From Muricea muricata (taxonomy: Eukaryota; Cnidaria; Anthozoa; Malacalcyonacea; Plexauridae): a DNA stretch of 64,000 nt. The DNA lies in assembly GCA_963855995.1 (NCBI GenBank), contig OY979728.1, forward strand, positions 9,942,004-10,006,003, in the 5' to 3' direction. Made by a program: the position numbers and the translations under genes. Below the pieces are notes generated by a model. That model was not told the DNA's origin. It was given only the letters and a program-made list of their open reading frames with translations, and made no database searches. The first letter of the stretch is position 1, and every line of letters starts with the position of its first letter. Below, one piece after another: positions 23,428-57,800 of the stretch.

Positions 23428-23789
23428 AGCGTGATATCGACGTTCTCAATGTAATAAAGTCAATAAATTGTTCGAATGTGATTTTGAATGAATTTGTTAC
23501 AATTTTATAGAATAGAAATTTCGTTTTATGGTGCAACAGGAATAATTTTTAAAAATAGAATTTCGTTTAATATTTTTACACCGGAAGTAAACAATAGGGT
23601 ATTTAAATAAAATGCCGCGAGAATATTACGTCACTTACGCGCGTGTGCTCCCGCGAGATGGCACGAATTAGGCGAGGAGACCACGAATTTTGGCGCATGA
23701 GCAGAAAGCGTTTCACGTGAAAGCCTCCATTTCTCTCTCAACGTGAACGACTTTTGCTCGGAGGCGACGATAAAAAGAGCTATAAAAAT
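23428..23789. promoter_or_regulatory. bidirectional promoter (LENG9-like / ATP5F1A)
   Basis: 362 bp between divergent start codons. It is richer in GC and CpG than its surroundings at about 23610-23770 (GCGCGTGTGCTCCCGCGAGA, TTTCACGTGAAAG). No TATA box sits at a typical distance on the LENG9 side; AAAAAGAGCTATAAAAATATG on the ATP5F1A side is too close to the ATG to be one. Confidence 0.5.
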
Positions 23790-31961: not shown

Positions 31962-33269
31962 CTACACATAATAAACACAAAAATAATATCATTATTTAAA
32001 GACTGTGATCCAATTTCTAACAAGGCTGGATTTTGTAGAAATGTGAAGGGAGGTAAGGAGATTTTTATGAGAGGTCCTATTGTGATCACTCCAAGTGGAC
32101 AAAGGGTAAAAATAAAAAATAACTTCTGGTAATAAGAAATATCATCAAACAATTAATATTTGCTAAAGCAGGCATTTATTAGGAAAGGGGCAAAAATTCT
32201 TGGGAGGGGGGGGTGCTGAAAATTTCAGGGGAGATGTGCACCTTCCCCCAAAATCCGACCATGACTCGTACAAAAACAAAATCAAATCTTAACTTAATCA
32301 ATTAGATCGAATCTCTAGTTTAATCCAATCCTTACTGTAGGATTAGGATTCGATTTAGATCATTTATTTATGATTAGATTAGGATTTCATTTCTTGTGCG
32401 TCTCAAGGGTTGCAGGACAATATGAAGTAATTTGTTAAAAAGTTCTAAAATTACCCCTTATCACTTTAAGATCCGTTTCTGAGGGCATTTGAGCCATATA
32501 AAACGATTAAACAAATTACTTAGAAGTGATTGAACTGTGATCTATCCGCCATCCCAATTTGATCTAATAATTGAATGCTTGAACGTAATGCTCTGTACAC
32601 GATATTGATGATATCTCCAGCCAAGGTTATCTCCAGCCTATCTTCACAGGTAGTCTAGCGTCTTATTTAAAAGTTTTTAAAAATAAAAATAGACAAAAAA
32701 TGTGCAATTTTTATATTTCTTTGTTTTTCTCGCTCCAGTCGTTGTGAGTCGATTGATAATAATATAATTATAGCGCCTGCGAACATGTGCAATGCTTCAT
32801 CTAATAAAAACATGATGCAATCGCGATGCATTGTGGTCCAACGGGTATGACTAAAGTGAAAGTTATATCAAATATCAAAGTTATATCCTTTGTTATACCG
32901 TGGTTATATGAAGAAGGGAGTTATCTCTGGAGAGTTATGACTCACACCACGCCCACTTTTTTTAACTCTCCCGGCGTTTCCTTGGACCACAGTTCTTGGA
33001 CTAACTTGAGAAGTTATAGACAGTCGTGGCACTCCATATTCCATTATTCCTGGTTTTACTAATAGCCACCGGCCCCATATAAGTTGGTTGCTAAGGAGGC
33101 ATTTAGCTCAGAACGTCAGCCAATAAGCGCTTGGCCCTGCATCCGGGTCTTGAATTTGCCCCCATGTTCCCTTTTGTTTACACCACTGACTGCTGCTGCG
33201 CCACTGACAAAAAATAGAAACCACAATAGAAACTACATTGAACTTTAGTGGCTTTCACTCAAAAAGATT
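31962..33269. other. shared upstream region of BORCS8 (-) and gene A (+)
   Basis: It should hold the missing first exon of BORCS8 and the promoters of both genes. Nothing convincing was found: no TATA box at a fitting distance, and several possible ATGs without matching donors. A poly-G run lies near 32200. Confidence 0.4.
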
Positions 33270-36200
33270 ATGGCAGAGTCTTTGGAGCCTAGTTATGACC
33301 CTGGGCGAACAATTGTTGTGTGGAATTTTCCTGAAGATGTCGGAGAAGATGAACTGACGGCTCATTTTCTAAAGGAAAAGAGTGGCGGTGGAGATGTCGA
33401 GGTTGTGGTGGACGGAAGTGTGGCGTTTGTTATTTTTGATTCGCCTGAAGGTCAGAGCGCTTTGTAGTACTTAACTGTTTAAATGTTTGTGGCGCGTATA
33501 TGAAAGTAACTATTCAACTACGGGCTAGCCCTTATGTATTTATATTTTGCGTTTAGGTTTCATTTAGCGCTATCACAGACAGCGAACGATATTAGGTTTT
33601 AGGCAATGTATTTCTCTTCAAACAGCTGCTTCGAAGTTCAAACAGCTGCTTTTCTGTTAGCTTTCACCTATGCTTTCACTTTATGATTTGCTGTTTCGAC
33701 TTACGAAACATAACGTATGACGGGATCAATTTAAGGAGGCCCCCTACAGTTTTAGTCCCCGAGCCAACGGCGCGAAGCGCCGTGCGAGGGTACTAATTCC
33801 GCACGGCTATTTACACCCGGGAAAAGGAAAGCATAGCGAAGTCTGAAGTTCATCAAATATCGCGGGCGCGTGGTTCAAGGGTGGCGGTGAGTGGGAGTCA
33901 TAGATATAGGAGACCTAGATTGCTGACTGTGGTAGAATTCATAAGGCATGCGCGTGGCAACTATGAGCATTCAAAATGGCGGCTCAACCGGGCAAAAATC
34001 ATAGAGTGGTATAGGGGAAAACCATGTTTTTTGCATTTTACGTCGTCCTACAGCTTCCGATCCCGTCATAACACATTATTTTGGAAAGAGCTAACTGATG
34101 CGAAGGTTTTGAATGTATATTTGTACAATTTAAGTTCATTAAAGTCGAAATAATCGATCGCGAAACGTTTTCTGAAGATCATAGCATTTGGTCGGTTGAG
34201 CTGTTCGAGACAATTTGTTGCAGAAAATAAAGGTTTGGGTTCTTTGGGTACTTTTTTTCTTAAGGATCTAGGTTGGAATATAAAACAGGGAATAATATTG
34301 TGAAGTTTCAACTTATTTTGCTTGATTTATCTGGTCTACTACTCTGCTGGTTTGAAAACTCTGATGCTTTGTTTACTATGACCTTGCTGCTGCAGATGTG
34401 TCACGGAATCTCAAGTCCATATGGCCTAGACTGTGAAAAGTGATGAAACAATCAGGTTTTTATTGAGAGCTAATGCCAGAAAAAGTTTTCAATGGATTAA
34501 TTTGAAGTAACTAACTAATTTGTGTATAGTATAGCTATGCATTAAATTGTTAAAGTATCTTAGTTCCCTCCCCAAGACACCTGATTGATTTTTTACAGTC
34601 CAGGCCATATTGATTAGTCAGTCATTGCCAAAAAGAATAAAGCTATTCAGCTTTCGCCTCTGGGATGGATTTCCTTTGCCAAAACAAAGTTTGAGTAAAA
34701 CCTCTGACAAGACAATATCAATGTGTTCATGGTCTTAACAAGGTGGAAAGGATAATCAAAAATAGATGGGATGGCATCTTTTTCAGATTGGTCTATTACT
34801 TGCTCTCCTGTAATATTAATAAAGTTGTCAGGTATAAAGTGTTTCTCATGCATGCCAGACTGAATATTTAGTTGACATCCAGTCTGCCCATTTCATTGCT
34901 GTTATTCAATTTGTTACATGCTGGGATTGGTTATGAGAAGTTAAAATAGTGCAAACTTAAGGGAAAGATGTATTATTGGTTCACTAATGTGAACAAAAGT
35001 CTTTGACAGAATTGTTGCATGATGTTCAAAACAAGATCTTATTTGGTCTAACATTCTTTGCATAATTAAAACTGTAAATAGTTTTATATTATGGTATTAT
35101 ATGTAGCCAACAAACTCAAAACTACATTTTGTTGTCATTACAGTATTTACAAAACAAGTTGTTTTTATGCTATTGAAAGCTTTGTTATTTTATTGTCTTA
35201 AAGTATACTTTTTATATGATTTATTGTCTTAAACTATTCTTTTTATATGAAGGATATATGGTGTACAAATGTACAGTATTATATAGACTTAATACTTATG
35301 GAAGGACCTGGCAGTTATACCATGGATAGTAGGTATATGAACAATATTTTATTATTCATAGGTATATGCTGGACAATATTCAGGCATGCTTATACATGGG
35401 TAGTTAAAAAGCAATAGATATTTTATTATCCATAATATATACTGGAAAATATTCAGATATTTTTGGCATGCATTGCCACAGCAGAAATTTCAGATGAAAA
35501 TACTGTATTTTGGTCGAAAAAAACGATGAAAGAACTAAATAAACAGTACTAGATCTTAGAATAACTAGATATATATCTCGTTACGTTGGAAAATCTCGTA
35601 AAAGACCGAAGAAATTCATAGGAAATGAAACCAGGCCGACAGGTTCGCACGCTTTTGATCTTTACCCACCTTTGCCCAGTTGTAAAAATGTAAAATATAA
35701 ATTGCAAAATGTACTAATTATAACAAACATACATTCAAAACCTTCGCATCGGTTAGCTCTTTCCAAAATAATGAGTCGGAACGGGATCGGAAGCTGTAGG
35801 ACGACGTAAAATGCAAAAAACATGGTTTTTCCCTATACCGCTCTATGATTTTTGCCCGGTTGAGCCGCCATTTTGAATTTTAAAAAATTGCCACGTACGC
35901 CTGCTGCGCCGAGTCAGCAATCTAGGTCTCCTATATCTATGGTGGGAGTGGGTGGTCATCACTGATCTCAAAAATATGGTGGACTATATTGCACTACAAT
36001 ATTTCGTATTTTTGCAAAAAGATTTGGCAACTTTCACAACCAACGAAGGGTGGTCATTTCTGATCTCAGGAATATGGCGGACTATCAGGAGTAGCAAACA
36101 CTTAAGGCATCCAAAAAGGCGAGAAGTAAGACGAAAACGACTGCCACAAGACTCTTGAAGAGAGATTAATTCGGGGAAAATACAGAGAAGCGCCAAGAAT

Positions 36201-39200
36201 TGACTATGACGTGAAACACAAGGCAAGTTTGTTGTTAATGCGTATTTATACTTGTGTTTTAATGCTTTATAAAGGCCGGCGTAGCCGTACTCATCCAGTC
36301 TATTCACTGTTTAAATTCCAGAGTAAGTTTATGTTTTGTAAATGCAAGACTGTCTTCTTATTACTAATGTAATTAATAGGTCGTATTTTATACCAAATTT
36401 AAGCTTACATTAGGCGTAATAACATACTGATGACAAATGTTGTGCCAATTAAAAAAATTGTCAATAAAACAAGGATTAAAAACTGATATTTTGTCATTTT
36501 GAAAAAATATACAGAAAGAATAACAATTGCCGTGTTGCTATGACAACAACCTATTGAAGTACTTCATGTAATTCCGAAAATATAGTTGCATGCTCTTAGT
36601 TAGTGGCGAGGGGTTGCTGCATGCATGTATTTCTAGTATATATCAAAGACTTAAACTAAAAGGCGTCTTAAATAAGAAAACTCGATGTTTTTGCATAAGC
36701 GTTTGCTTGCTCGAATATCAAAGAGTAATTTTCAAATAAAATTGTAACTCTTGACGTAACCATGGCGACATGTCGTCATTATTTAGATACAAAAATTTAG
36801 CAAAAAAGCCATCGTAGCGGATAAACGAGCACGGTGACCTATCTTTTTTATTGCAGAAATTGCATGATAATGACATTCTTAATCTTTTTAGAAAGTTATT
36901 TAAAAATCGCCAGTGTAGTTTTTTTTTAAAAGCCAAAAATTAGTTTCACAAAAACTACACTGGCGATTTTTTTCAAATTTTGAAATTTAATAGAACTTAA
37001 TAGGATAAATACATATACAAATTTTGAGATATAGTCACCGTGCAAACAAGCGAGAAAATAGCACCTCTAGGTTCCCCAAAGTGACTTTTTTTACTTTTTT
37101 ACTACACGCAAAAAGTATTTTCACTGACCGTACACGCATTCATCACATGTTTGCGGACGTGTGTCGGCACGTTTTATGCGTATTGTAATAGCCGTAGTAT
37201 TTTTTCGTTTGGAATTTTTTGTTTAACTATGTTTAAGAAGAGATTAAAAGACATTCATATTGCCAAAAAGTAAAAAGACAACATAATAAGGCTTGAAGTG
37301 AATCCACTGTTTGTTGAATTTAGTATTGTCATTAAAAACTGATGCACAAAAATCTTTTCAAAACATTGAATTACCAATTTGACTTCATGGCTTAAATACA
37401 TGACTGTATGTACTATATACACAATAGTTACTAGATTATGTTGTTAAAACACGAAAAAAATCGCATCTACTTGAACAAGAAAACTTACATAAGCTTCGGT
37501 AATACTTCAGAAGAGCCATGAAGCCGATGGAGACAATATAAAATAGTTAGTCGGAGTCCATACAGTTTTCGTAAAATTTCGAACATCGAAAATTACATTA
37601 CTGGACGTAATAAGCAACCAAAAACTTATTTAAAACACATACCTCTTGAACCTAGAAACACAAACGATTGTAAGGAAGAACTAGTGTTTTTTTGTATGTA
37701 GAAACACGAAAACATCGGCAAAAATAATTGTTTTTAAAATTGAAAACCCTTGAAAACTTTGAGCAATTTTATAGCCGGCCACGAACATTCCACGCGTGAT
37801 TCGCGCGGACAACGTCTGATCTCTATAAATCCGGTTGTAACTGAACCAAACTGTAGGGAGCCTCCTTAAGTTAAAGCCCCCCTATGCATAGGGTGGCGTA
37901 TATTAAAATAACAAAATTTTGCGTTTGAATATACGCCCCCCTTTAAACAAGCGTTAATTTTCCGTATTATCGTTCGTATTTGTTTTGAAATTGCATATAC
38001 TCATATTTAACGAAACTGGAAGGAGATACTTTATATATATATGAAATAACAAATTTCAGTATTGCACATTGTTTTAACACGCTTGTTTTCACACCTTTCG
38101 TGTATTGTTTTAAAGGCGGATAAACAGTGAAAGCGGTAACGTTTTTGTAAACAAATTCAAATTAGCGAGTAATTTTATTACAAAGGACTTGCGTCTGTAA
38201 CACGCATAGCCAATAACATGCACTTTAGCTGTGCTGTCTTGATACTGTGTTGACCAAAACAACCTCATATTTGGTCGATGAGTCATTACTAAAGTTCATT
38301 ATAAAAAGACCTCAAAATGCTTGTTAACCATACTGCCAGTATATCTCCGACGCGACAACACAAGCGAAAGAAAGCATGTCTTTTCACGGCGAACTTCGAG
38401 AATTTCATATTATAAAGGGGGCGTATACTGAAATGACCATTTCAATATACGCCACCCTATGCATAGGGGGGGGCTTTAACTTAAATTGATCCGTATGACG
38501 TAACATCCGCGTAGGTGTATGCAATATCAAATGCGATATTTGAAGTTTTAAAAAGTAGCAAGAATTCAAGAAATATATTTTCGTGGCACCCGTCTACAGG
38601 AGGTCAGGTGATGAGGTTCATTTGAAAGGTATTTGCAGTAGAAAAATTGATGCATCACAATTTGCATCACGACAAAAGGGTTAAAAAAATGGCGCTGTTT
38701 TGGTTCAGTCTTTACTGTTGAAAAAACTTCGAAGAATGAAAAACAATTTCTGTGTGACCAGTCAAACTGCAAAATTAAAGTTTTCAGAATTAGGTTTAAT
38801 AATACCATTTGCACTGGCTTAGCAACGAGCACTTCATTTCAAATCACTACTTATTAACTATTTACTCTATTATTTAATGAGGTATTGTTATGTTTTCAGT
38901 GGTAACAAGCGTCCTTAATGAACCCCAGCAAGTCATAGATATCAATAACTCCAAGATTGAAGTGCAGAGTTATCAATTATGGTTGACCAACAAGAAAGAG
39001 AAGGTCAATAATTATAGACAAACTGTCATGTATATCCTGTTTTAGAGAAAAGGCTTTCCTCCTAACTGAGAAAGTAGTTTTACTAAAATGTTTGTACATC
39101 AGTGTTCGGTGATCGTTTAGTTGTTCAAAGTTTGTGAACCTCGTTCTTATTTCTTCTTTACTCTCAAAACAGGAAAGGCCATTTAGTTCTCCAGTAGAGA

Positions 39201-42200
39201 GTCCTGGAAGTGGCAATACAGAAGATGCAGATGAAAAGGATGCAGTTAAAACAATTTATGTGAGCGATTTAAAAGATTCGACAACCACAGATGCTATTAC
39301 GTTTTTCTTTGAAAACACAAAAAGAAGTGGAGGTGGTGATCTACGTGAAGGCAAAGAAGGATTCAAGAGACTTTCTCCCACTGTTGCCCGGTTGACATTT
39401 GTTTCTTCCAGAGGTATCGTCTTCAGTTAACTCTTTGTATTGCATCATCATGTAAAGGGCTTGTGATAATATCCATGTTTAAAGATGTACTGGTCAATGG
39501 AAAATGTCATAGTTATAATTATCTTCCATCATCTTCTTGTAGTTGTCTCTCTACCTTAACATTTTCTCTTTACATTTTTTCTTTCTTTTATCTTCTAAAT
39601 CTTTCAGCTAAGGTAAAATCATACCTTGTTTTATCATGTGTAACTCCAGTCCTTTCCAGTACAATTAAGCCTGTACGATTCTCATATTTTGCCGATGATT
39701 GACGAGTCATTGTCGGTAATCATTCAAGGAAAAAATTTACAAAGGATTTTACTTGTGAGTAATTACCTACAATAGATGCTGCCATACATGAACGAGGTCA
39801 CAGAATTGGATCAAGGCTTTACCCCCATCTCATCTTCTCAGAGAGAAGAGAAACATGTAGTAAATTCTTCTAATCGTTAAATAAGGGCAATAATCACAAT
39901 TGCACTCTTGAATAATAATCAACCCTAGATCCCAATCCAATAATGCATTTTACCTAACTTTAAGACAAACTGTTCTAAGTACTGTATGTTAAAACATGCA
40001 TTAAGCAACATTGACAATCATTTCTTTTCTTTATTTACCATTGTTTCTCTCAGGATCATGTATTTTCTAGCTGTTTCTTGATCATTTAGTCCAGTCTTTG
40101 AACAATTAGAAAATTAGCTGCCGGGTCTTAATATCCTAGTTTATCTTTTTGTTTCACCGTCTTGGTCTTAAGATGTTATTTATAACTGTACATTTGTAAT
40201 ATTTTTGTTTAGTTGCTAAATATGTGCTTGAGAGAGCCAAAGTGACACCTCTTCGACTCGAGGGAAATTTATTGACAGTGAGCAGCGAGTTTATACCAAC
40301 ACATGACCAGAGTATACTACTGGCAAAGAATCTTAATCCAAAGACGAGCAAACAAACATTTAAAAACTTTGTTGAATCAACGCAAAATGCTGATGTTTTC
40401 AACATTGTTTTCGGGAAAGATGGTAAAGCTCTCGTCATATTGAAAAGTACGATAGGTGGGTTTTTTCATTATATTTGTAAATATTGACGACATATTTGTG
40501 AATTTGGAAGATACTTCGGAATGTCCAATGCTAATATCTCCAAACATCACCCCTCTTTAGATGCTGATGAAGATGATTCAGGGAGAGAAAATGCAGATAT
40601 GAAACTGGATGGATCCATCATATCTCTCGAGTTTCCTCCACTAACCAAAGGAATTAAGATCAGCAATTTACCACAAGATACCACTACTGATGATATCAAG
40701 TTCAAATTTTCAAACCAAAAAATTGGCGGCGGTAAAGTGACGGACATAATGTTGGACAAGAAAAATGGAGTTGCTAATGTTTACTTCGAGAAATCCTCAG
40801 GTGGGGTCATAACTTATGGTAATTGCTTATGAGTGGAAATATGTCAGTGTTGTCGTGTTATTACTTTAATAAACCATTATTTTCAAATATTTTGTATAGT
40901 TGTTCCTGAACTCGTGAAGAAGAAACATACATTGAATGACATTTCTTTAACCGTGATTCCTTACTATGATGATTTTGATGAACTTCAAGAAAAAAAGACC
41001 AGAACTTTCGACCACTCTGGCGAGTATCCTATCGACCCTCTTGTCATGGACTACATAATGGATACACAGGAAATCGATAAGAAGTTCGACTTTAAATCAA
41101 TGAAGTTTGATGGAGAAACATCACGATTTCATTTTACGAAACAATTCGACGATCCTAAAGACGCGACAGAATTTAAAAACAAGTTGAACGACTTTCTACA
41201 ATCGTTTGCCAAAGAAGAAGTAAAAATCCCTAAGGTTATTTTCCACAAAGGTAAGGAAGAGATTAAAAACAAGAGCGAAGCAGACAAAGTCGATTTCAAT
41301 TGTTATCGTTCTCGAATCTTTTTGGTTGGGGAGAAAAATGTTGTTGCCGAAGTAAAATTGGTGTATGAAGCCGGCATCAATTTGGCACATGAAGCCCCGA
41401 AGGAATCGGCAGATTTTCTAATTGAAGGCAAAATCAAGCTGAAACTAAAACATGAGCTGAAAACAGACGACGCCACAGAAGGAGCTGTGAGTCCTAAATG
41501 CATACTGACCTTGAAGATATGTGACCACGAGGTAATATTAAAATAAATTAGCTGTCACTTGATTCGCTATGGTAGTATTTTTAACAATGCTGTCACTTGA
41601 TTCGCTATGGTAGTATTTTTAACAAAATGGCTTAAAAATCAATTTTTTGTCGAAGAGTAAAACAATTAAATTACTTTTACAGCTTTGATTACTTTAAAAA
41701 CAATTTGTAAACTTTTATTCCGTTTAAAATATGACATACCTGTATATTAATAAGGACTTTCCTTCTCTCCATTTTTAAGAAAAAGCGATTTCCGATAATT
41801 CTCAACGTGATAACCCCAGAGGAAGAATCAAAGTCAGAAAATCTACAAGAATTCAAGAACGAACAGTTACAGATACGCCGAGACTTGATCCTCATACGAG
41901 AGATTATAGAACCGTTAATGAGCAATTCCAAACAAGTATTGGAACGTTTAATTGATGAAAGAGCTATTGAATCCAGTACATTTAAACCCATGGATACGAT
42001 GAAAGTTCGCTTCCTAAGCCAACACTGTTGGGATAAGATTAAAGAGAAAGAACGAAGTTACAAAGGTGAAGGCGTTGTTGTAAGTAAGGCTGATGATGCT
42101 AACTCTTTGGAAGTAAAGAGAACGAAGAAGGGCAGAAGTGATATGATCATGGTCCTGGGAGAACTGGCTGGAAAAGTTGATACCATGGTATGTTGGTTTT

Positions 42201-45200
42201 TCTTTCTTTAGTGACTGTTTGAAAAGCGTTATTTTTGGAGAGGAAGATATATGTGATGAGCGATGTTGTCAAAAATTTTTTTGTGATGCACTGGACTCTT
42301 AAAATCATTCTTTTGCTGTCATATCAGAGCTGTTATATACAACTGAGATGGAAACATTAACATTATTTATAAAATTCATGAAGAAAACAGAAAAGAGATA
42401 CATAATTTGGTCAATATTAGGAATCGGGTAAAGATTTTGAGCACACAAGCAGTCCGCCATCTTGGATTTTCAAGAATATCTATGTTTACTGTATTGGAAT
42501 AAAATATAGAGCACTTCATACAATCGTAAAGAGTGTAAAGTATTTTCTATGAAATTTCATAAATTTTATTGTATCTCAACAAATTTTATAATATTAGTAC
42601 AAAAAATGCGTAAATACAGATTCAATATTTAGTATGGAACCCTTTGGCTTTGCACACTTTAACACGACGCTCTCTTCACTTTCTCCATCTCCGTGTACGT
42701 CCACACTTGGTCAATGATGTTCATGTCAGGACTGGGCCAGCCAGTTTAGAACGGTCAAGCTGCCATCTCGCTTCTTATTCGCCAGGTATATCTTGATTAC
42801 CCTAGCGGTGTGCTTGGGGTCGTTATCGTGCTGAAAAACAAAGTTTTTTTTCCAATGAGAGCCTTCCCGACAGGCACGGCGTGGTACATACTGCCTCAAA
42901 CTGCTTCCAAAAAAGATGAAACTTTTTCTCATCAGTGAACATAACTTTTCTCCATTGCCCAGGCGCCCATGTTTTGTGAGTTCGGGCCCATACAAGTCTT
43001 AGGTTTGCGTACAGCTACATAACCTCCAAGACCTGCACCTTTCAAGGTCTTTCGAACAAGCCTTGAGGACACTTTTTTACCAGTTGCTTCTTCCAGATTA
43101 AAATTTCCGTTCTGTCCATGGCGCCGGGCACTCTAGTTCACCGTACTTGGTGAAAGGTTCATCCTGTCTGCAATGTGCGGGAAAGAGTAGCCTTCATCCC
43201 GCAGAATTTTCATCTGTGCTCTTTCTGTCTCTGTTGTTTCTCTTCTGGGCGCCATTCTGGGTTTTTTTTAGTCTTCTTCTGAGATATAACCAACAGCAGC
43301 TATAGCTTACGCTTTGTACCCGACATCACCAGCCAAAGCTTACGCTTCCTGTAGAAGTAGCCATATCTCCAGTACTTCATACGTTTTGAACTTATCATAG
43401 TAAACATTTTTCGTGTTTACATATTTTATTCCAATACTGTACGTCACAAGCGGGATCACGCGACATTTGATGATTGACAAGCAGTGATCAGAACCAATCA
43501 GAAACTTGTTTCTATTTGCTATTTGATACCACATATTAAGTAGCATTTTGGCCAACTAATGTTTGTTACGCACTTTCTTATGAGTAATTTTTTAAGGCTT
43601 ATTCCACTTGTGACGTCACGTAATGAGTTCAAAAATTTATCCAAGATGGCAAAAAGCTGACATGTTTGAGTCCAAATGTCTTAAGAATCAAGCTAGATAT
43701 GAAAAAGCTGTAACACGCTTTGTCGGTTATTCCAAAAGCTCTTTCAATTAAGCAAAGAGTATTCTTTGTTGCCAATACCCTTTAAATATTATTCATTTCT
43801 TTGAGATTGGGAACGAATACCAACGTTTTCGTGCAGTACGATTAAGCATTTGCATCCGATCTGTATCTGATCTTAAACCACTCGCCTTCTGCTCGTGTTT
43901 GTAAATCAGATACAGATCGGCCTCTCATGTTTTATCTATTACACGTTTATGCGATGGAATCATTAACATCATATATTTATGAATATCATAGCGATACATA
44001 ATGTATCATTTGTTTGACGTTAGCGAGGGCCACTTTTTTAAACAATTAACCCGATATTATTCATAAAATAGACCTACAAAAAGTTCCAACTGATATTCCT
44101 CGGCTAATGTGATTTATTCAACTCTATCTGTTTGATATATCACGTGTACATGAATTCTTGCTTAAGCTTGCTATTGTGTCATCGTTTGCACTCTTTGTAA
44201 TTGCATTCAGATGATTTTCAACGACGTCGCGACATTGCGAATGAATCGTCGTTAAAAATTGAGTACGCACAATCAAATAGGCAAGTAGATTTCATTTTAA
44301 AATATATATTTTAATGATATATTTTTTATAATAAATTTAGGATAATTTTTAAAGTCTAGCGTGCATTTTGGCCTAGAAGCTGGTTACAAAATTTGTTCCT
44401 GTTAAATATAAAATCTTGCAAGACTGAATATGAGTTTTGTAACCCTTAATATAGATTTTGTAAGCTTGAATATAAATTTTGTAAGGCTGAATTAAAGTCA
44501 TGGAAAAGTCTTATAAGAATCTTTGTTAGAGAATGATAAACTCGGACGGTTCTCGCAAGATATCGTGATTGGTCGGTGGCTTGCAGATAAATTATTTGCC
44601 TCTGTCTTTGGCATCGGCAAAATAATTGATCTTCTCGCCACCGACAAATCACGACATTTTGCTTAACCTTGTCGAATAATTAATAATTATTTTTATTTTA
44701 TTATGAAGACTTTATCGAGAAATACTGTACTTAGCATACAAATATGCGAGTTAACATGGATCTAGACAACTGGATAGTTTATATGCAAAAGACAATAGGT
44801 ATAGGTTAAAAAGGCATCTGTTAATGAAATATCACTTAAACCGTCCGCGATATAAAATTATGTTCTCTGTTACGTAATTTCCTCGTCCGTTTGTACGATT
44901 CCCTAAAGTTGAAAATGCATATTTAGAAGGGTCTACTTTTTCGATACACCTTGCATAATGTAGTGCATGTTTATAAATGTAAATATACAAGGTTGGTAAA
45001 AAAACTGATACCCTTTCAAATTCAATGTCTAAAACAAAATCTAATTCCCTGTGGAAGTTAAAATGCATAATTCTGGCCGTGCAAGATTTGTGAGAAATAA
45101 GACAAAGTCAGAAACGAGACAACAAAACAGACCCATGGGAATAAACCGTAATGTAATTCGCGGCTAATTTGAATTTGAAAGGGCATCAGTTTTTTTTACT

Positions 45201-46905
45201 CGCCCTGTATAAATATTTTCTTCTTTTTTTCTAGATCAAAGAAGCGAGATCATTAGCTTTGCGATTCATGTCTTTGCATCCTTGCTGCATCCGAGTTATC
45301 CCGTATGAAAATAAGGGTGACGGCAGCAAGCTCATAACGATGTGCTTGTATGTGAGTACTAATGGCAAGGGAATTCCAGAAGAAGTAAGAGAAGACGCGA
45401 AGGAAATGTTTGAAAATTATGACATTGAGTTTGATGACCTCCAAAAACGTCCTCCAAGTAAGCTTTTTATCCCACTTCCTTCGTCGGAAAAGCGACAAAA
45501 CAAAAAATTATTAGATCTGTCCAGGAAAATCAAGGAAAATCTTCATCTTTTCGATAACCGATTAAATGTAACAGCCGTCCAAGCATCTTATAAAGTAAAA
45601 GAATCTAAAGAGCAGAGCATTCCATGTATTGCAGTATTTGTCCTAGGCAAAACTAAAGTTCCCGCAGGAGAAACCGATATGAAGACGATAAAAGACGACA
45701 ATTACCTCTTATTTCAGGATATCGAGTTTGACGTTGTCGAAGGGTATTATCAACCAGCAATTCGTCGCCCATTACAGGCTTCCTATACCCGCTCTTTGCG
45801 TTCTGGCTTCGGAATAGGCGTGGAAGGATCAGATTATGCTGGAACGTTGGGAGGATTTTTGGAAGACGAAACTGGGAAGCATTATATTCTCTCAAACTGG
45901 CATGTGCTCCGTCCACATGATAAAAAGAATGAGGATGTTATCGTTCAGCCTGCTTGGTGCGACTATGAAGTTATGTGTAAGGAAGCTGAGGCTAATTTAG
46001 AAAGAGAAGAATGCACAAAAACTCCTGCTATAGAAAGAGAGAAAGAGAAGAGAGTGTTTGGGGATCTTGACTTGGAGAAAGAAACTGAGGAAAGTATAAA
46101 GGAGGCAACTGAGGAATTAAAGAAAACCAAAAGTAGAAAGCCAAGACAAATTGGAACGTTCGTGGATGGCTTGCGACAGAACGTACCCGTAGACGGCAAA
46201 TTAGGCGGAGACAAAATATACGTTGATGCAGCTATTGCCGAATTAGACGAAACGGAGGAGGCTCGTATGATATGGGAGAAGAAGAGGTATCCTGATCTAT
46301 TCGGCTTTGAAGAACAAGGTACTAGTGATAAAATTGTTAATTTTGAAGGCTTTATTAACGAACTTCGTACAGGCGACACCGAGAAACTGAGATTTAAGAA
46401 GTATGGGCGAACAACGGGGTGTACCGATGAAGGTTTTATTGACGACGTAGTAAGGGATTTGTATGTCACAGTTTTTCATGATCAGAATACTGCTTCTAGA
46501 GATGACCGGATCGCTTCTGTATTGTCTCACGTCCCGTATCCGTTCTGTAAGAATTGTAAATTTTCAGATACCAATGAGAGAGTACTCAACTACGACAAAA
46601 AGAAGTGCACAAGTTGTGACAACACACTGAAGAAAAGTGACCAGTTTGGGCAGTTTTGGGCTCGTAATTGTTTCGTTATCCGCCAGCGTACAGATGCTTT
46701 CTGTGTTCAGGGCGATTCAGGTGCCTTGGTATTTGACGAAAAGGGTAATGCCTGTGGCTTATTGCACGGTGTTTTTGATGATTACACTCGTACCTTCTTT
46801 TTCGGTTTAGCTTCGCCGCTTTCTTTCACTTTGAAAGCTCTGGAACAGAAATCGGGAAAAAGAGGACTTAAACTATGGTCTACTAAAGGGGCGGAAGACA
46901 TTTGA
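33270..46905 (+). CDS. gene A: RRM-like x4, KH-like region, C-terminal trypsin-like serine protease
   Basis: Eight exons: 33270-33450, 38900-39003, 39173-39413, 40213-40455, 40561-40800, 40900-41531, 41780-42187, 45235-46905. They total 3720 nt, 1239 residues, all phases consistent. RRM-like units start TIVVWNFPEDVGEDELTAHF, TIYVSDLKDSTTTDAITFFF, SILLAKNLNPKTSKQTFKNF and GIKISNLPQDTTTDDIKFKF, the set-up seen in PARP14-like proteins. Exons 6-7 hold shortened KH-like sequence. Exon 8 (residues 684-1239) has two related strand-rich modules (each ending near YDIEFDDLQ / QDIEFDVVEGYY), then a chymotrypsin-fold protease: His906 in ILSNWHVL, Asp1014 in VDAAIAEL, Ser1178 in VQGDSGALVF. A four-cysteine knuckle (C1121-x2-C1124-x16-C1141-x2-C1144) sits before the serine. 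There is no signal peptide, so it acts inside the cell. Function is unknown; an RNA-guided or RNA-triggered protease is a hypothesis. Confidence 0.85.
33735..37865. mobile_element. TTAA-targeting transposon inserted in the left end of the outer element
   Basis: Terminal repeats GGAGGCCCCCTACAGTTT and AAACTGTAGGGAGCCTCC (one mismatch) are bounded by TTAA at 33731-33734 and 37866-37869. The target lies 8 bases inside the outer element's left terminus. Without its own nested insertion it is about 2.1 kb. No intact transposase remains. A short hairpin at about 36896-36975 (AAATCGCCAGTGTAGTTTTT and its complement) lies within. Confidence 0.75.
33899..35941. mobile_element. long-TIR element (~235-bp arms) nested inside the TTAA element
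   Basis: CATAGATATAGGAGACCTAG at the left is mirrored at the right end, and homology continues for about 235 bases (shared ATTCAAAATGGCGGCTCAAC, TTTTGCATTTTACGTCGTCC). A perfect 8-bp target-site duplication GTGGGAGT lies at 33891-33898 and 35942-35949. It is 2043 bp with no sizeable open frame. CA termini with an 8-bp TSD fit hAT or P superfamilies. Confidence 0.85.
42489..43439 (-). mobile_element. Tc1/mariner element with decayed transposase, in gene A intron 7
   Basis: Terminal repeats CTGTATTGGAATAAAATAT and ATATTTTATTCCAATACTG are flanked by TA (42487-42488 and 43440-43441). On the minus strand it encodes a Tc1 transposase with helix-turn-helix remnants (APRRETTETERAQMKILRDE near 43250) and the catalytic-core words FQHDNDPKHTAR and LAQSPDMN. 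Frameshifts and a stop interrupt it, so it is not active. Confidence 0.85.
42726..43255 (-). pseudogene. Tc1 transposase pseudogene
   Basis: Reading from about 43255 leftwards, the DNA-binding part, a TGKKVSSRLVRKTLK stretch, KTWAPGQWRKVMFTDEKKF (second DDE block) and FQHDNDPKHTARVIKIYL are found in at least two frames. Shifts lie near 43140 and 42900. The length is below the usual 340 residues. Confidence 0.75.
43857..44656. repeat. two short hairpin repeats and a 22-bp triplet repeat in gene A intron 7
   Basis: 43857-43921 pairs CCGATCTGTATCTGAT with ATCAGATACAGATCGG. 44563-44656 pairs CGTGATTGGTCGGTGGC with GCCACCGACAAATCACG. Between them, near 44415-44490, a unit like TTGTAAGCTTGAATATAAAT occurs about three times in tandem. 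Confidence 0.6.
44988..45207. mobile_element. TA-flanked MITE just before the protease exon
   Basis: Ends CAAGGTTGGTAAAAAAACTG and CAGTTTTTTTTACTCGCCCTG are mirror images with mismatches, continuing through GATACCCTTTCAAATTCAA. TA on each side fits a Tc1/mariner-type MITE. Its right end lies 27 bases before the exon at 45235, so it supplies part of the polypyrimidine neighbourhood. Confidence 0.7.
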
Positions 46906-47760: not shown

Positions 47761-50563
47761 GGTAGTCATTCCCCTTTAAAATGTAATTTTTGAAAAAAAA
47801 ATCAAATTTTTAAAATTTATATATTTAGGTACTTTAAGTATTATACTTTAAGATAACATGGCTTGTTTTGTTGAAAAAATGCATATTTGTGAGAAAATAG
47901 GTGTTTAAGAAGCCCTATTTAAAAAATTTCCCCATAGCAACGCCATAGCAACGCGTTTTCCTTCCAAATTTGCTTGATTATTTCACTGACAAAGCGTATT
48001 TTTTTGAATTAAACTTTTGATGTATGTTATTTAAAGCTATGCCAGTAGATCTCTTTGTGATTGGTTCATTTTCGTAGGCATAGCAACGCGCTGACTTCTC
48101 AAACTCGAGGTCGATTTGTGGCGAGCTGTGTAAAAAATTGTGTCAGAAAATTGCTGTTTTTTTCGCGTTTATAAGTTGAAATATTGTTGTTACAGTGTAG
48201 AATTACATTCCTAAGGTTGTTCTGAGTGTAATTCAGAGTGAATAGATGGGGAACTCGAAAAATAGAGCAAGAAAAAAGAAGAAGATACCACCGTCAAGGA
48301 AGAAGAATATAATCCAAGATGGCGGCCCAAGCTACAAAGATCGTGGACCTTCTGCGAAAAAAATCAGCCAGAATACAGAATTGCTTCGTGGTATGACGGA
48401 AAACATTGATAGTACTGTAAAAGAAGGAACTATTTTAATGGACTTATCCATACTATGCAATGTATTTGACAATGTTTTGAAGTGCCCTGATTGTGGATGT
48501 GATATAAAGTCACATGCTGACATGAAAAAGAAATGTGGATATTCCAATTACCTCGTGTTACAATGTGAAAGTATGGAGTGTGATTGGGAGTATTCTTTTA
48601 ATACTTCAAAGAAACAAGGTCATTCTTATGAAATGAATGTAAGAACAGTCTTAGCTTTCAGGGAAATTGGCAAAGGGCATAATGCCATGACTACCTTCAA
48701 CAAGGTCATGAACATGCCTCCTCCACTAACCCGTCGTGTCTTCACAAAGATCCAAAATGAAAAGGTTTTGCCTGCTGTAAAGAAGTTGGCTTCTGATAGT
48801 ATGATCAACAATGCCTATCAAGTCAGAGATGAAATAGCAAATGATGATGGTGAATGTGGAGTGTCGATCGACGGTACTTGGCAGAAGCGAGGATATTCGT
48901 CCCATAATGGGATTGTTACTGTGATCTCCTTGGATACGAAGAAATGCCTGGATGTGGAAGTGTTGTCAGACAAGTGCCAAGAATGCCAAAAGTGGGGGGA
49001 AAAGATTAATGACCCAGGCTACAATGCATGGAAAGCATCCCATGAATGCAAGATCAATCATGAAGGAAGCGCTGGCAGTATGGAGACAACTGGTGCCGTT
49101 CGGATTTTTAAAAGGTCGGTGGCTACGAGAGGGCTGAAATATATGAACATGCTTGGAGATGGGGACTCCTCAACCTATAACAGTATTGTTGAAAGCCAGC
49201 CATATGGAGAGGATTCTATTCCAAACAAATTAGAGTGTATCGGCCATGTTCAAAAAAGGGTTGGAAGTCGTCTACGCAAACTGAAGAGTTCGAACAAAGG
49301 AGTGAAATTGGCTGATGGGAAAGGTTTGGCTGGTAAAGGTAGGCTGACTGACAGTAAAATTGATGTGTTGCAAAACTATTATGGCTTGGCAATCAGGGAA
49401 AACCTTGATGATGTTGGTAAAATGGCCAAGTCCATAGAAGCGTCTCTTTACCATGTTGCATCAACTGCCGAGAATCCACAGCATCATCTCTGCCCAGAAG
49501 GAAAGGACAGTTGGTGTGGATATAAGAGAGACAAGGAAGAATATAAACATAAAAATGGAATACCAAGCTGTATTGTTGATATGATCAAGCCAGTATACAA
49601 AGACCTTAGCAAATCTGAACTGCTAAGTAAATGTACTCATGGCTTGACACAAAATGTTAACGAGTGTCTGAACAGGCTCATCTGGGACAGATGCCCTAAG
49701 TCTACTTATGTTGAGCAAGAAACTGTGGCTCTTGCCACCTACCTGGCTATTCTTAAGTTTAATGATGGTGACATTTCCTTCTTGAAGTTATTTCAGGACC
49801 TTGATGTAACTCCTGGTATTTTCACTGGTAAAGCCTCGGAGGAATGTGACAACTCGAGGATAAAACTGTCGGCAAAAAAGAGCTCAGAACAAGTGAAGAA
49901 GAGAAGAAAGATACTGAGGCACCAAAGAAAACACTATATAGACACTACAGAAGACCAAGAAGGTGTTACCTATGAAGCAGGTGCTTTCTAGAGACTATAT
50001 AAACCAGAACAAAACATTAAAGTACTATTTTCTCAATTTCACAGTTTTCTCATTTCAGTTAATCTTTGTGACAGCATATCTTTCTGAATATTTAGTGTAA
50101 AAGGTTGAAACTTGGTATGTTTATGGCTTTTAACATTATCTAGTAACTGACCATTTTTAATTTTTCATATTTTTCATTAGTAATGTATAAATGAGGTTTA
50201 ATTACCTAATTAGCTGTAAAAAATCCCTGTTTTTTCCTAATGTGCAGATTTTTTACCAAATTTTTTGCAAAAATGTTTTAAAGTGAAAATAAAGATGGTC
50301 AGTTACTAGATCATGTTATAAGCTTTCAAAATATATGTCATTTATGTTCTTCTGATTAACGGTGTGTGTGGTATCATGTTTCATGCGACGCCATTTTTTG
50401 GCTAATTAGCGGGCGGCCATATTGGATAATTAGTGTAATTAATGAGTAACCTGAAAATTTTTTTTAGATTTTGATTTTTATCACTGTGCCCCTTAAAAAA
50501 ATGTTTTTGCTGAGTCTGTACCTTGTAAAATAAAAAAAAATGCTTTAAAGGGGAATGACCACC
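47761..50563 (+). mobile_element. complete TTAA-flanked DNA transposon (Kolobok-like) with transposase gene
   Basis: Terminal repeats GGTAGTCATTCCCCTTTAAA (left) and TTTAAAGGGGAATGACCACC (right) differ at one base. Both ends are flanked by TTAA (47757-47760 and 50564-50567). The 2803-bp element holds one uninterrupted transposase frame. TTAA target choice fits Kolobok or piggyBac; the transposase is not piggyBac-like. Confidence 0.88.
48246..49991 (+). CDS. Mutator-like-domain transposase of the TTAA element
   Basis: One open exon of 581 residues, no stop or frameshift. The N-terminus is basic (NSKNRARKKKKIPPSRKKN), followed by a possible zinc ribbon (CPDCGCDI ... CGYSNYLVLQC). The catalytic core resembles the Mutator-like transposase family: first Asp in GVSIDGTWQKRG, then HECKINHEGSAGSM, second Asp in LGDGDSSTYN, CIGHVQKRVGSRLRKLK, and a candidate Glu in TQNVNECLNRLIW. 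This gives a D/D/E set in the expected order. The C-terminus is Lys-rich. The intact frame and near-identical terminal repeats point to a young, possibly mobile copy. It is a cut-and-paste enzyme for the element and has no role in the flanking genes. Confidence 0.85.
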   Translation: MGNSKNRARKKKKIPPSRKKNIIQDGGPSYKDRGPSAKKISQNTELLRGMTENIDSTVKEGTILMDLSILCNVFDNVLKCPDCGCDIKSHADMKKKCGYSNYLVLQCESMECDWEYSFNTSKKQGHSYEMNVRTVLAFREIGKGHNAMTTFNKVMNMPPPLTRRVFTKIQNEKVLPAVKKLASDSMINNAYQVRDEIANDDGECGVSIDGTWQKRGYSSHNGIVTVISLDTKKCLDVEVLSDKCQECQKWGEKINDPGYNAWKASHECKINHEGSAGSMETTGAVRIFKRSVATRGLKYMNMLGDGDSSTYNSIVESQPYGEDSIPNKLECIGHVQKRVGSRLRKLKSSNKGVKLADGKGLAGKGRLTDSKIDVLQNYYGLAIRENLDDVGKMAKSIEASLYHVASTAENPQHHLCPEGKDSWCGYKRDKEEYKHKNGIPSCIVDMIKPVYKDLSKSELLSKCTHGLTQNVNECLNRLIWDRCPKSTYVEQETVALATYLAILKFNDGDISFLKLFQDLDVTPGIFTGKASEECDNSRIKLSAKKSSEQVKKRRKILRHQRKHYIDTTEDQEGVTYEAGAF

Positions 50564-51830: not shown

Positions 51831-54800
51831 ATGGCAGAGTCTTTAGAGCCTAGCTATGACCTTGAGCGAACGATTGTCGTGTCGAATTTTCCTGAAGATG
51901 TCGGAGAAGATGAACTGACGATTCATTTTCAAAAAGAAAAGAATGGCGGTGGAGATGTCGACGAGGTTGTGGTGGACGGAAGTGTGGCGTTTGTTATTTT
52001 TGATTCGCCTGAAGGTCAGAACGCTTTACAGTATCTTAACAGTGTAAAATGTTTGTGAAGCGTATATTAAGACAGGCAGCTATTCAACTACCCCAGCCCT
52101 TATTTATACTATGTTTCGCTTTCATTTAGCGCTATCACAGACAGCGAATGTTATAAGATTTTAGGCAGGGTATTTCTCTTCGAACAGCTTGCTTAACTTA
52201 TCTTCGTACAGACGTACCAGGCTGATAAAAGTTAGCTTTCATTTTAGGATTTGGTGTTTTGACTTGCGAAATATAAATATCGTCGGCTGGCGAGAAGGCA
52301 GCACAGAATAGTGAATAGTGTGACGTAATACCGCGTAGGTGTACCTAGCACATATGATCAGGGTTGCCAGTTGCATGAATAAACTAGCCAAACTTTTAAC
52401 AATGCTCTTTGTTTTTCATTGTATTTGCCTTTTGTTTTCTTTGTTTTTTTGGCAGCACTAATGATGGTTTGGCTTAATTATTCAAGAAATCTGGCAACCC
52501 TGCATATGATTAGCCTGATAATTAAATCACTATGCAGTACTTTTTGGTTTCCTGGTTAACCTATAAATATTAATATTTTGGACTATGTATAAATGTGAAT
52601 TTCGTAAGTAACTTAAACAACTGGCCCCATCATCATGGCTACTTATTGTGGATTTGTTTTACATTATGGCGACTTTAATGAATGAAATAACTCCTAATTG
52701 CTGACCAAATAACTCCAAATTTAGCTACTTCCATTATGTGTACATGTTATACATGACTAGAATACTATAGAGGTAATTCTGTTAGAACCTCTTTCCCCCA
52801 GCCCAATACAAATTTTCCTATTAAATGATTAGCCTAATGGGGAATAATCTAGAGGAATTTATTCAGTAATATTGCGTGATTAAACGTATGACTGTATGTG
52901 ATATGTAACATCAAATATGGAGTAATCTAGAGGAAGTAGGAGTAGAGGAAGTAGGAGTAGTCTAGAGGAAGTAGGAGTATTCTAGAGGAATTTATTCAGT
53001 AACATTGCGTGATTAAATGTATGACTGTATGTGATATGTAGCATCTAATGTAGTAAGAAATCAGATAGAAGACAAAGACAGGGATGCCTAAATGAGCAAA
53101 GGGCTAGGGGGGGGAGCAAACTTTTTTTGAAGGGCATCAACAAAATTTTAACCATGTTAAAATGCTTACCTGGGAGTTTACTGGGTCAGTTGCAATGTTT
53201 TTTTGGTCAATGGACCATTCCCCTATTGGACAAACTTTTAAATTCGGAAAATCAATTAGCACAGTTGGAAAGAGCATCCTAAGTTTTATACAATTGTCAA
53301 GTTTGGGTGCAAAATATTGTAAAATGTGGAAAATATAGCCCTGTAAAATTTGCGAATTTTGTATACTTTTATATTACGACGGAAAAGCGTTACAATTATC
53401 AGTGGCGGATCTAGTGTAAGTCAAAATAAATTACCACTGACAGCTCATTCTAGGTTATGTTTACATTTTAAAATACCTTCAAAGCAACTTCATTGGTTAG
53501 ATTTTATTCTTTTGAAATTCATAACCTATGACATTGTTATAAAGTTATTTTGAATTTAAAATTGGCTGCTATAGTTTATTTTGACTTACCCTGGATCCGC
53601 CACTGACAATTATGTGGAAATGTGGTAACACTTTTTCCCGTGTAATACAAAAGTATACAAAATTTGCAAACTTTACATCACTATATTTTCAACAGTTTAC
53701 AATATTTTGCAATAAATAATACTAATAACGTTCTTGAACTTAATGTTCAAAAACGAAGCGGAAAAGAACTTAAAGAAGCCCATACTCTGCTTTTAGTGTC
53801 TTATATAATATTTTTATACTTGAAGGGCACTTTTCTCCCCTTGCCCCTTTTGCAAAAGGCATGGGGCAACTGTCCCTCCTGCCCCCCCCCCCCCCCCCCC
53901 AGCTTCGGCGTGCCTTGACATAGCGATACTAATTTGACCGCATTATGTGTTTTTAGTTCTAACAAGCGTCCTTGAACACACTGACCAAGTTATTGATGAA
54001 ACAAAGATTAAAGTACAGAGCTATGAGTCATGGTTGGCAAACAAAAAGGTCAACAATTTTATTAATTCAACAAAGAGACTTCTTCAAGCTGAAGAAGTGA
54101 CTTTCCGAGTTTCCACTAGATTCAATTGTTGTTCTGGATAGTTTAGATCTCATGGGTGATAACTATTTATTCATTTTCAAACAGAAGAAGCATAGGTCCT
54201 CAGCTAGCAGTCTTAAAGAAAATCCTAAGCACAGCCCTCCAGAAGATATAGTGTCAGAAGATGCGTTTAAAACAATTTATGTCAGCGATTTGAAAGACTC
54301 GACAACTACAGACGCTATTACTTATTTCTTTGAAAACAAAAAAAGAACTGGAGGTGGTGATCTATGTGAAGGCAAAGAAGGATTTAAAAGACTTTCTCCC
54401 ACCGTTGCTCGATTGACATTTGTTTCTTCCCAAGGTATCGTTTTAGTTATCGTTTTCATATCCGTCATCCATACATACGTACAGTTGCATTATACAAAAT
54501 GTAATGGTAATGTCATATTTCCTTTATTATCTTGTAAATCTTTCCGCAAATTTAAAAGTATATTTTTGTTTATCTTGTGTAACACCATTCTTTTCCAAAG
54601 ATCTTATCTATTTCATTATTCCATTTTATCTTTTATCTCTTATTTGTTTCCATCTATCGAGAGAAGAGAGACATCTAAAGCATTATATAGTAGAACAGTA
54701 AAGAATAATCAAAACCGACAAACTATTCAACCACTTTGAATAATGATCAACTTGGCCCTAGATGGCAATCCAAGCACATTTTGCCTGTAGTACTTTTAAG

Positions 54801-57800
54801 ACAATGCATGATGAATGTGTTGAAAAAAACGCTAGACAGCAATAACCATTATTGTGTCTTTTTCAGTAATTAAATGATTCTCTTGATATAACGTATTTGT
54901 AGGTGATTCTTAATTGTTTCCTGATTCTGATTCTTAGCTGTTTCCTTCCTTTTCCCATCCTAACATTTCGCCGTCTTGGTTTCAGGATGTCCTTTATATT
55001 AAGTCCACATTAATTTTGTAATCATTACGTTTAGATGCAAAAAATGTCCTCGAGAATTCCAAAGTAACGCCTCTTCAACTCGAGGGACAATTCTTGACAG
55101 TAAGCAGCGAGTTTATACCAACACATGACCAGAGTATACTACTGGCAAAGAATCTTAGTCCAAAGACGACGAGCAAAGAAACATTTAAAAACTTTGTAGA
55201 ATCGACGAAAAATGCCGATGTTTTCAACGTTGTTTTCGGGAAAGATCATAAAGCTATCGTTATACTGAAAAGTACAATAGGTGGGTTGTTTCGTTTTGGT
55301 TGTATGTATATACTGACGCATAATATTTTGAAATGTACCAGTGCTAATATATATCCACCAACAATCACCTCTCTTTAGATGCTGATGAAGATGATTCAGA
55401 GAGAGAAAATCAGGATATGAAATTGGATGGATTCATAATTTCTTTAGAATTTGCTCCACTGACGAAAGGAATTAAGATCAGCAATATATCACAAGATACC
55501 ACTACTGATGATATCAAGTTCAAATTTTCAAACCAAAAAATCGGCGGCGGTAAAGTGATGGACATAATGTTAGACAAAAAAAATGGAGTTGCTAATGTTT
55601 ACTTCGAAAAATCCTCAGGTGGGGTCATGACTTATGGTAATTGCTTATGAATAGAAATATGTCTGTGTTGTCGTGTTATTGTTTTAACCAACAATTATTT
55701 TCAAATACCTTATAGTTGTTTCTGAGCTCGTGAAGAAGAAACATACATTGAAAGACGTTGCTTTAACCGTGACTCCTTGCTATGATGATTTTGAAGAACT
55801 TGAAGAAAAAACGACTAAAATGTCTGACTACTCTGGCGACTATTCTGTCGACCCTCCTATCATGGACTACTTAATGAATACACAGGAAATCGTTAAGAAG
55901 TTCGACTTTAAATCAATGAGGGTCGATGGAGAAACATCAAAATTTCATTTTACGAAACAATTCGCCGACCCTAATGACGCGACAGTATTCAAAAATAAGT
56001 TGAAAGATTTTCTGCAATCATTTGTCAAAGAAGAAGTTAGAATCCCTACGACTGTTTTTGAAAAGGTTAAAGAAGCAATTGAAAGCCAGCGCAATGACTT
56101 TGAAGATGACAGTGTTGATTTTCGCTTTGATGGTTCTCGAGTCACTCTCATCGGCAGAAAAGAAGACGTGGTCCTCAAAAAACGATCAATTGAAGCAACA
56201 ATAGATAGAAGTTTGGAAGAAGCCAAATTAGTATCAGAGGAGTTGACGATTGATGACCAAAATATACTGAAATTCTTGAATTTTATAAATTATTTCAAGA
56301 ATGTTTTGCAGGATTTTCCCGGAGTGAAAGTTCACGGCGTTGAAAGCTCTTCTGGGCAATTGTCGATTCTAGGAATGGAAGGAAAAATAAAAGATGTCCA
56401 ATTAAGGATCTACCAGGATATAACGAAGATCTCTGAGATTGATGTTAAGACGAGTGTTCATCAGATAGATTTTCTGCAGCGCACTAAATGTAAGATCGTC
56501 NNNNNNNNNNNNNNNNNNNNNNNNNNNNNNNNNNNNNNNNNNNNNNNNNNNNNNNNNNNNNNNNNNNNNNNNNNNNNNNNNNNNNNNNNNNNNNNNNNNN
56601 NNNNNNNNNNNNNNNNNNNNNNNNNNNNNNNNNNNNNNNNNNNNNNNNNNNNNNNNNNNNNNNNNNNNNNNNNNNNNNNNNNNNNNNNNNNNNNNNNNNN
56701 AATGATGAGCTAAAGAAAGACGAGGCCATGTTATTACTGATGAACGTGGAAGGAGCTGTGGGTGCCAAAGCCTTGCAGGCTAAGATAATGACTTTGAAGA
56801 AATGCGACGACAAAAAGGTAATCTAACATTTTATGCCGTATGATCTGACTTTTATTGTTAATTCTTTTCCATTAAGTAATGACGCAGAAACGTGAAGCGA
56901 ATTTTATTCGGAACCTTTTTAGCTCGCAAACCAGAACCTGAATATATGAATATTTGCCCCCCCCCCCACTTGCCCTTCGCTAAAGAGGTTGTGAATAGGT
57001 TGCTTGAAAATTGTAGAGGCTAAACATAAGATTATTATTGGCTTAACTGCCACTGCCAGCTCCTAAGCAGAGTAATAATAATAATAATAATTTACTAATT
57101 TATAAAGCGCTAAACGCTATAAATATTCTAAAGCACTATCATTACAAATTCAAATAAAATGCTATAAAATATGGGCATGGTGGAAAAGACGGAGTACGGA
57201 GTCACGGAGTACGGAGTCACGGAGTACGGAGTCACGGAGTACGGAGTCACGGAGTACGGAGTCACGGAGTACGGAGTCACGGAGTACGGAGTCACGGAGT
57301 ACGGAGTCACGGAGTACGGAGTCACGGAGTACGGAGTCACGAAGTACGGAGTCACGGAGTACGGAGTCACGGAGTCAAGACGGAGTACGGAGTACGGAGT
57401 CTGTCTGTAAAGTGTTCCCCCAGACGTGGCGGTGACTTTTAAACAGACTCCGTCTTTTCCACTTTATGGGGGCATAAAATGGAAAACACGGAGTCCGTCT
57501 GTAAAGTGTTTCCCCAGACGTGGCCGTGACTTTTAAACAGACTCCGTCTTTTCCACTTTATGGGAGCATAAATATATCTACGTTCATATTACAGCGTTCT
57601 ATCGTATAGTAGCGTATCTATTTAACCACATATCAGGATATCATATAATCATAACGGATATCAATATCTTTATATCTAATCATATAAAAAGTTTCACCAG
57701 CGTCCAACCGCTAACACAATTATGCTCTTAACGTAGCAAAAAATAATATGAAATTAAGCTTTATCATTTATTTGGTAACTTCCAGCTATGGTTCTCATAA

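Follow-up and report, generated by a model that had tools for sequence, protein, structure and literature searches.

In a 64,000-nucleotide window of Muricea muricata contig OY979728.1 (the window meaning this whole stretch of analysed DNA), gene A (33270–46905, forward strand) appears to encode four RNA recognition motifs (RRMs) of the PARP14 kind and predicted KH-like units, fused to a NAL1-type, trypsin-like serine protease. This reading, of a binding platform with a protease attached, is given a probability of roughly 0.6, a figure that does not apply to an immune role taken by itself. That gene A is one functional gene, with a real fusion of exons 1–7 to exon 8, is considered quite likely. 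The structure was read from genomic DNA. The parts are of known kinds, and as far as the searches go their combination, together with a visible exchange of the effector end, is new.

Gene Structure and the RRM/KH Front Half

When spliced, the eight exons yield 1239 amino acids followed by a stop codon, with introns that are all GT..AG and of phases 1, 0, 1, 1, 1, 0 and 0, no N anywhere in the span, and an in-frame stop (33246–33248) directly 5′ of the ATG. All exons lie on the forward strand. Exon 1 (33270–33450) provides the start ATG and the first half of RRM 1, exon 2 (38900–39003, conserved in the tandem sister gene B at 53957–54048) its second half, exon 3 (39173–39413) a linker and the first half of RRM 2, exon 4 (40213–40455) the second half of RRM 2 and the first half of RRM 3, and exon 5 (40561–40800) the second half of RRM 3 and the first half of RRM 4. 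Exon 6 (40900–41531) would complete RRM 4 and add KH-like units, and exon 7 (41780–42187) is taken as KH-like by its position and its 48% identity to exon 7 of gene B. Beyond intron 7 (42188–45234; phase 0, 3047 bp), proposed here as the point at which the effector was swapped, the protease module and stop codon occupy a single C-terminal exon 8 (45235–46905). Intron 7 also contains, on the reverse strand at 42726–43132, transposase remnants with a Tc1/mariner-like motif, the part at 42729–42998 being without a Pfam match.

Unspliced stretches of gene A match Pfam RRM_PARP14_3 with E-values of 7e-5 (33270–33464), 5.6e-4 (39113–39427) and 5.6e-8 (40488–40832), and of 0.013 for one further stretch; the unspliced stretch of exon 4 has no Pfam match. 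Once spliced, residues 1–683 match RRM_PARP14_3 over three stretches (E 1.9e-33) and RRM_PARP14_1 (E 3.5e-11), and this rise in score supports the exon joins. These matches agree with the preliminary description, in which four RRM-like units of the PARP14 kind were recognised. Its further claim of KH-like sequence holds insofar as the front as a whole is of the PARP14 RRM/KH type; the KH-like region itself is predicted from model folds and a sub-threshold Pfam match in one relative, and exon 7 has no Pfam match of its own. No Pfam match to macro, WWE, ART, RING, DTC or TRADD-N domains was found in gene A. No obvious signal peptide was seen by eye at the N-terminus, and the product should therefore act inside the cell.

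Gene B (51831–62009, forward strand) resembles PARP14 over the part that was read, in which no ART end was seen, and shows the origin of the front half of gene A. Its exons, with boundaries set by eye at AG/GT sites, comprise exons 1–7 as in gene A and then 60631–60936, 61399–61620 and 61778–62009, which hold a macro domain (Pfam, E 9.2e-20), and the gene may extend further. Intron phases agree between the two genes for exons 1–5 and 7, the end phase of exon 6 being uncheckable owing to a gap of N (56501–56700) inside gene B exon 6, and the joined exons 1–6 (first part) and 7 of gene B give an open translation. The exon 7 donor of gene A matches that of gene B, and DNA likeness between the two (comparison at E 1e-3) stops at 42207, after the first 20 bases of gene A intron 7, on which grounds remnants of the later gene B exons in that intron were rejected. 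The exon after exon 7 begins in phase 0 in both genes, so putting a phase-0 exon in place of the original 3′ end would have been mechanically simple. Exon 6 of gene A is shorter than that of gene B (55716–56817) and its end is more diverged, and it has probably lost part of the KH region.

Comparison of the two genes over exons 1–6, up to the shortened part (460 aligned codons), gave a nonsynonymous rate (dN) of 0.124, a synonymous rate (dS) of 0.339 and a dN/dS of 0.36, and for exon 7 (134 codons) dN/dS was 0.51 with dS 0.75; these values pool both lineages, in which A is not separable from B. In a neutral simulation of gene A exons 1–7 (2000 copies, base changes only), no copy remained free of stops at 0.136 or at 0.17 changes per site, compared with 0.55% at 0.10 and 5.35% at 0.05. 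Because a copy without constraint for half of dS would near-certainly have gained a stop, exons 1–7 have stayed coding during the greater part of the period after duplication, although this test is compatible with a loss in recent time. The match of gene B to exons 1–7, the avoidance of stops and the gain in RRM scores upon splicing together place the gene structure beyond chance. With its GT..AG introns and open frames, gene A thus stands as the single gene of eight exons and closed phases that had been described, the exon 7–8 junction being inferred.

The Protease Module

A trypsin-like protease with His906, Asp1014 and Ser1178 (residues 223, 331 and 495 of exon 8) had been proposed from the sequence, and the enzyme does look active, as judged by conservation of the triad motifs: in an alignment of 31 rows (exon 8 and relatives), His and Asp are kept in all 31 and Ser in 30. 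An insert of the form CxxC...CxxC inside the protease (46546–46617, forward strand) resembles a zinc ribbon and may bind zinc, its cysteines at exon residues 438, 441, 458 and 461 being kept in 29, 31, 30 and 30 rows, respectively.

Among the 50 + 50 fold matches listed for exon 8, the best was NARROW LEAF 1 (NAL1), known from rice and maize and likewise trypsin-like, with ∼16% identity over the aligned part; gene A differs in having zinc-ribbon-like and helical inserts. To our knowledge, NAL1 has no RRM/KH front. FAM111, also named previously as a relative, is not among these fold matches, which has no bearing either way. Pfam NAL1_N (PF25608) gave no match to exon 8, E 0.25 with the relative P0001 and E of ∼1e-4 with phage relatives, below the curated cut-off; two relatives on phage contigs match NAL1_N and one also Nal1_C, all below curated cut-offs. 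The family phrog_20754 is homologous to exon 8 (best stretch residues 105–243, E 5.4e-17), and together with the fold match and the hits of the phage relatives this bears out the kinship to NAL1 suggested earlier. The best NCBIfam match of exon 8 (E 0.1) was far below cut-off, and searches of PDB sequences gave nothing significant: the best E was 0.25 for the single sequence, and the alignment reached E 0.26 against a capsid chain of Semliki Forest virus and 0.28 against NAL1.

Compact NAL1-type proteases were observed on two phage-like IMG/VR contigs, at L001:2659–3645 and L002:2938–3936. The hhalign probability of L001 against exon 8 is 97.4, and an Alphaspiravirus “putative serine protease” shares 30.5% identity with L002. 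The phrog_20754 and Alphaspiravirus proteases share sequence homology with exon 8, but the two enzymes on L001 and L002 are compact (∼330 aa) and have neither the inserts nor fused domains. A PADLOC search with exon 8, L001 and L002 matched no known anti-phage system.

Reuse of the Module in Relatives

Relatives of the protease comprised 122 different proteins (six long matches and the best 120 of 140), and all 113 of 113 matches to exon 6 were used. At least six of the 122 have a front of 100 residues or more ahead of the module, and these fronts differ: ankyrin repeats in P0003, tetratricopeptide repeats (TPRs) in P0006, a kinase fragment in P0074 and an Asparaginase_2 domain in P0004 (Dendronephthya gigantea LOC114537883), a fusion that may be an artefact of gene prediction. 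In P0001 the front and the protease each occur twice, the front being without an assigned family (TRADD_N at E 0.046), as is that of P0122. All of these other than P0004 come from short contigs. The motif at which the module starts, (I/V)-x-x-(A/V)-R-S-L-A, is the same in the first five of these (P0001, P0003, P0004, P0006 and P0074), and the sequences fit a C-terminal exon that would have been attached to different genes. The earlier idea of a trypsin-like effector behind sensor domains is therefore upheld as regards a protease behind variable partner domains, whereas an immune use of it is suggested by analogy. In a collection of species genomes searched with three patterns, 21 stretches matched and none was confirmed as a relative.

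When contigs were compared, using size in bp (typed by hand) as a stand-in for identity, at least three were common to the 95 contigs with the protease and the 71 with exon 6, namely the window's own, which is trivial, and two carrying the closest modules, of 410,277 bp (P0008) and 919,977 bp (P0009 and P0010). The closest modules among the matches listed are P0008, P0009 and P0010, with 85, 84 and 85% identity to exon 8, and together with exon 8 they make up a fully supported clade (100/100). At the locus on a 919,977-bp contig, module copy number and sequence seem to vary (gene B exon 6 at 99.2%, modules at 84–85%), and the modules there, P0009 and P0010, are probably paralogues of exon 8.

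Proposed Mechanism and Comparison With Known Systems

A PARP14-like gene would have been duplicated in tandem, after which gene A would have exchanged its 3′ end at intron 7 for a protease cassette that already existed as a single phase-0 exon. The product would be intracellular, its four PARP14-type RRMs and KH-like units binding nucleic acid, partner proteins or both, and this front would place the NAL1-type protease on substrates. It would most likely serve as an innate-immune or stress effector whose front recognises RNA or an RNA–protein assembly, binding of which would cluster or free the protease, so that it cleaves proteins of the host or of an invader. RNA binding and activation by binding are suggested by analogy with known systems, activation by RNA being hypothetical, and the immune role, also argued by analogy, is the weakest step. 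A broader and tentative proposal is that in anthozoans a NAL1-type protease cassette, portable and made of one phase-0 exon, serves as a general effector behind RRM-KH, ankyrin, TPR and kinase-like sensors. Gene A would then be a protease that senses RNA, adding a third class of effector to the PARP14/DTX3L platform beside the ADP-ribosyltransferase and the ubiquitin ligase.

Human PARP14 is described, in the passages concerned, as having RRM1–3, KH1–8, three macrodomains, WWE and ART, with an RRM/KH front that is largely uncharacterised, is predicted to bind nucleic acid and also makes protein contacts through KH domains (PMC13224862). Gene A shares with vertebrate PARP14 the RRMs, followed by predicted KH-like units, and its sister gene B a macro domain as well, whereas gene A has no macro, WWE or ART match and ends in the protease. 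DTX3L sets a precedent for exchanging the effector, as in the same passages it too has an RRM-KH front, with a ubiquitin-ligase end at the C-terminus (PMC13224862); gene A has a protease in place of RING/DTC. Paper titles and abstract openings tie PARP14 and PARP9/DTX3L to interferon responses. TRADD-N families in marine invertebrates, cnidarians included, are reported in the relevant passages of PMC8195603 as expanded and as mixing RNA-binding modules with repeats and effector domains, an oyster having a PARP14-like set, and trypsin-like effectors are reported there from bacterial systems. Gene A shares this style, but has no TRADD-N match. Those passages contain no RRM-KH-protease fusion, and “NAL1” does not occur in the text; nor was such a fusion reported in titles and abstract openings of the papers listed, within the open library and the terms used. 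PARP14 appears once in a coral-genome paper, in the reference list (PMC6208414).

With the same front joined to a macro-domain end in one copy and to a protease in the other, the tandem pair would show the platform to be modular, and it provides a natural way of testing what the front half does alone. It also places NAL1-type proteases, which have been studied in crop plants, in animal multidomain proteins with phage-encoded relatives, and makes it testable whether such proteases act as effectors in host–invader conflict.

Gene A could alternatively be one gene that acts as a general RNA-granule or transcription regulator, with NAL1-like turnover of corepressors directed by RNA binding and no role in defence. 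This is possible but rather unlikely, and is not exclusive with the platform-and-protease reading. In maize, NAL1a reportedly breaks down a TOPLESS-like corepressor (PMC12915138), and the protein contacts of the PARP14 KH domains point the same way; against this, the tandem copies, the modules differing by 15–16% on a contig with a 99% identical gene B exon 6 (perhaps paralogues) and the occurrence of the cassette behind several partners look more like conflict systems, by comparison with passages of PMC8195603.

The Predicted Exon 7–8 Junction

The join of exon 7 to exon 8 is predicted from genomic features. It is in phase 0 on both sides, with a donor ATG|gtatgt, an acceptor that is pyrimidine-rich by eye, and a stop codon immediately upstream of exon 8. 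The residues 5′ of Met12 of exon 8 are conserved coding sequence in relatives, all 13 aligned rows that extend this far having RSLA, with variants among other matches listed, while at the Met12 position 8 of 29 rows have T or S. At least four ORFs (open reading frames) of relatives appear to read from the end of the intron straight into the module start motif, as expected of a phase-0 acceptor.

These observations bear on whether there are instead two genes: exons 1–7 would then be a PARP14-like copy that is truncated, and exon 8 a separate protease that starts at Met12 and has either a promoter inside intron 7 or a first exon that is non-coding. Many of the family ORFs listed do begin close to or at this position, some of them opening with a few residues of their own (MSNKIAEARSL in P0030, for example, or MLQKINEVRSL in P0043). 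A short ATG-led leader exon in intron 7 was rejected, as no ATG-led phase-0 leader ends in either of two consensus donor forms, weaker donors being possible. Exons 1–7 also escaped stops, and as a separate gene would have no known 3′ end; their exon 7 donor is like that of gene B. The in-phase junction, the conserved residues before a variable Met12, the absence of such a leader and the lack of any other known 3′ end for exons 1–7 speak for exon 8 belonging to gene A, and two genes are considered unlikely.

Several points nevertheless weigh against the fusion: intron 7 is long and holds transposon debris, and no spanning transcript was found. A search for the same architecture in relatives, as had been suggested, gave a divided result, since the RRM/KH front is absent from all six long relatives (680–2168 aa), while the two contigs with the closest modules carry PARP14-type exons. 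On the 919,977-bp contig, however, gene B exon 6 has a counterpart with 99.2% identity in P0123. The linkage could therefore be due to nothing more than a neighbour of the B type, and P0009 and P0010 differ from exon 8 by 15–16%. That gene A is a broken duplicate with an unreal join, as an assembly chimera or pseudogene, is very improbable, for although exon 6 is shortened, transposons have inserted and a gap of N lies elsewhere in the window, gene A itself has no N, open frames, the low dN/dS over exons 1–6, no stop-free neutral copies at the two higher rates and an intact triad, and its closest modules sit on contigs with PARP14-type exons.

Neighbouring Elements

An open ORF of 581 aa (48246–49991) between genes A and B encodes a Mutator-like transposase, with a match to PF20700 at E 2e-70. 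Blocks of short repeats occur between exons 6 and 7 of gene B, at 57106–57442, 58221–58793 and 59038–59246, and an ORF on the reverse strand at 59258–59776 is presumably reverse-transcriptase-like (sub-threshold rhaM match, E 0.052). Elsewhere in the window, a CCCH zinc finger with an MJ1316 RNA-end domain (PF04457, E 6.6e-27) is encoded at 22426–23445 on the reverse strand, and Ccdc124 (PF06244, E 1.3e-33) at 21801–22307 on the forward strand.

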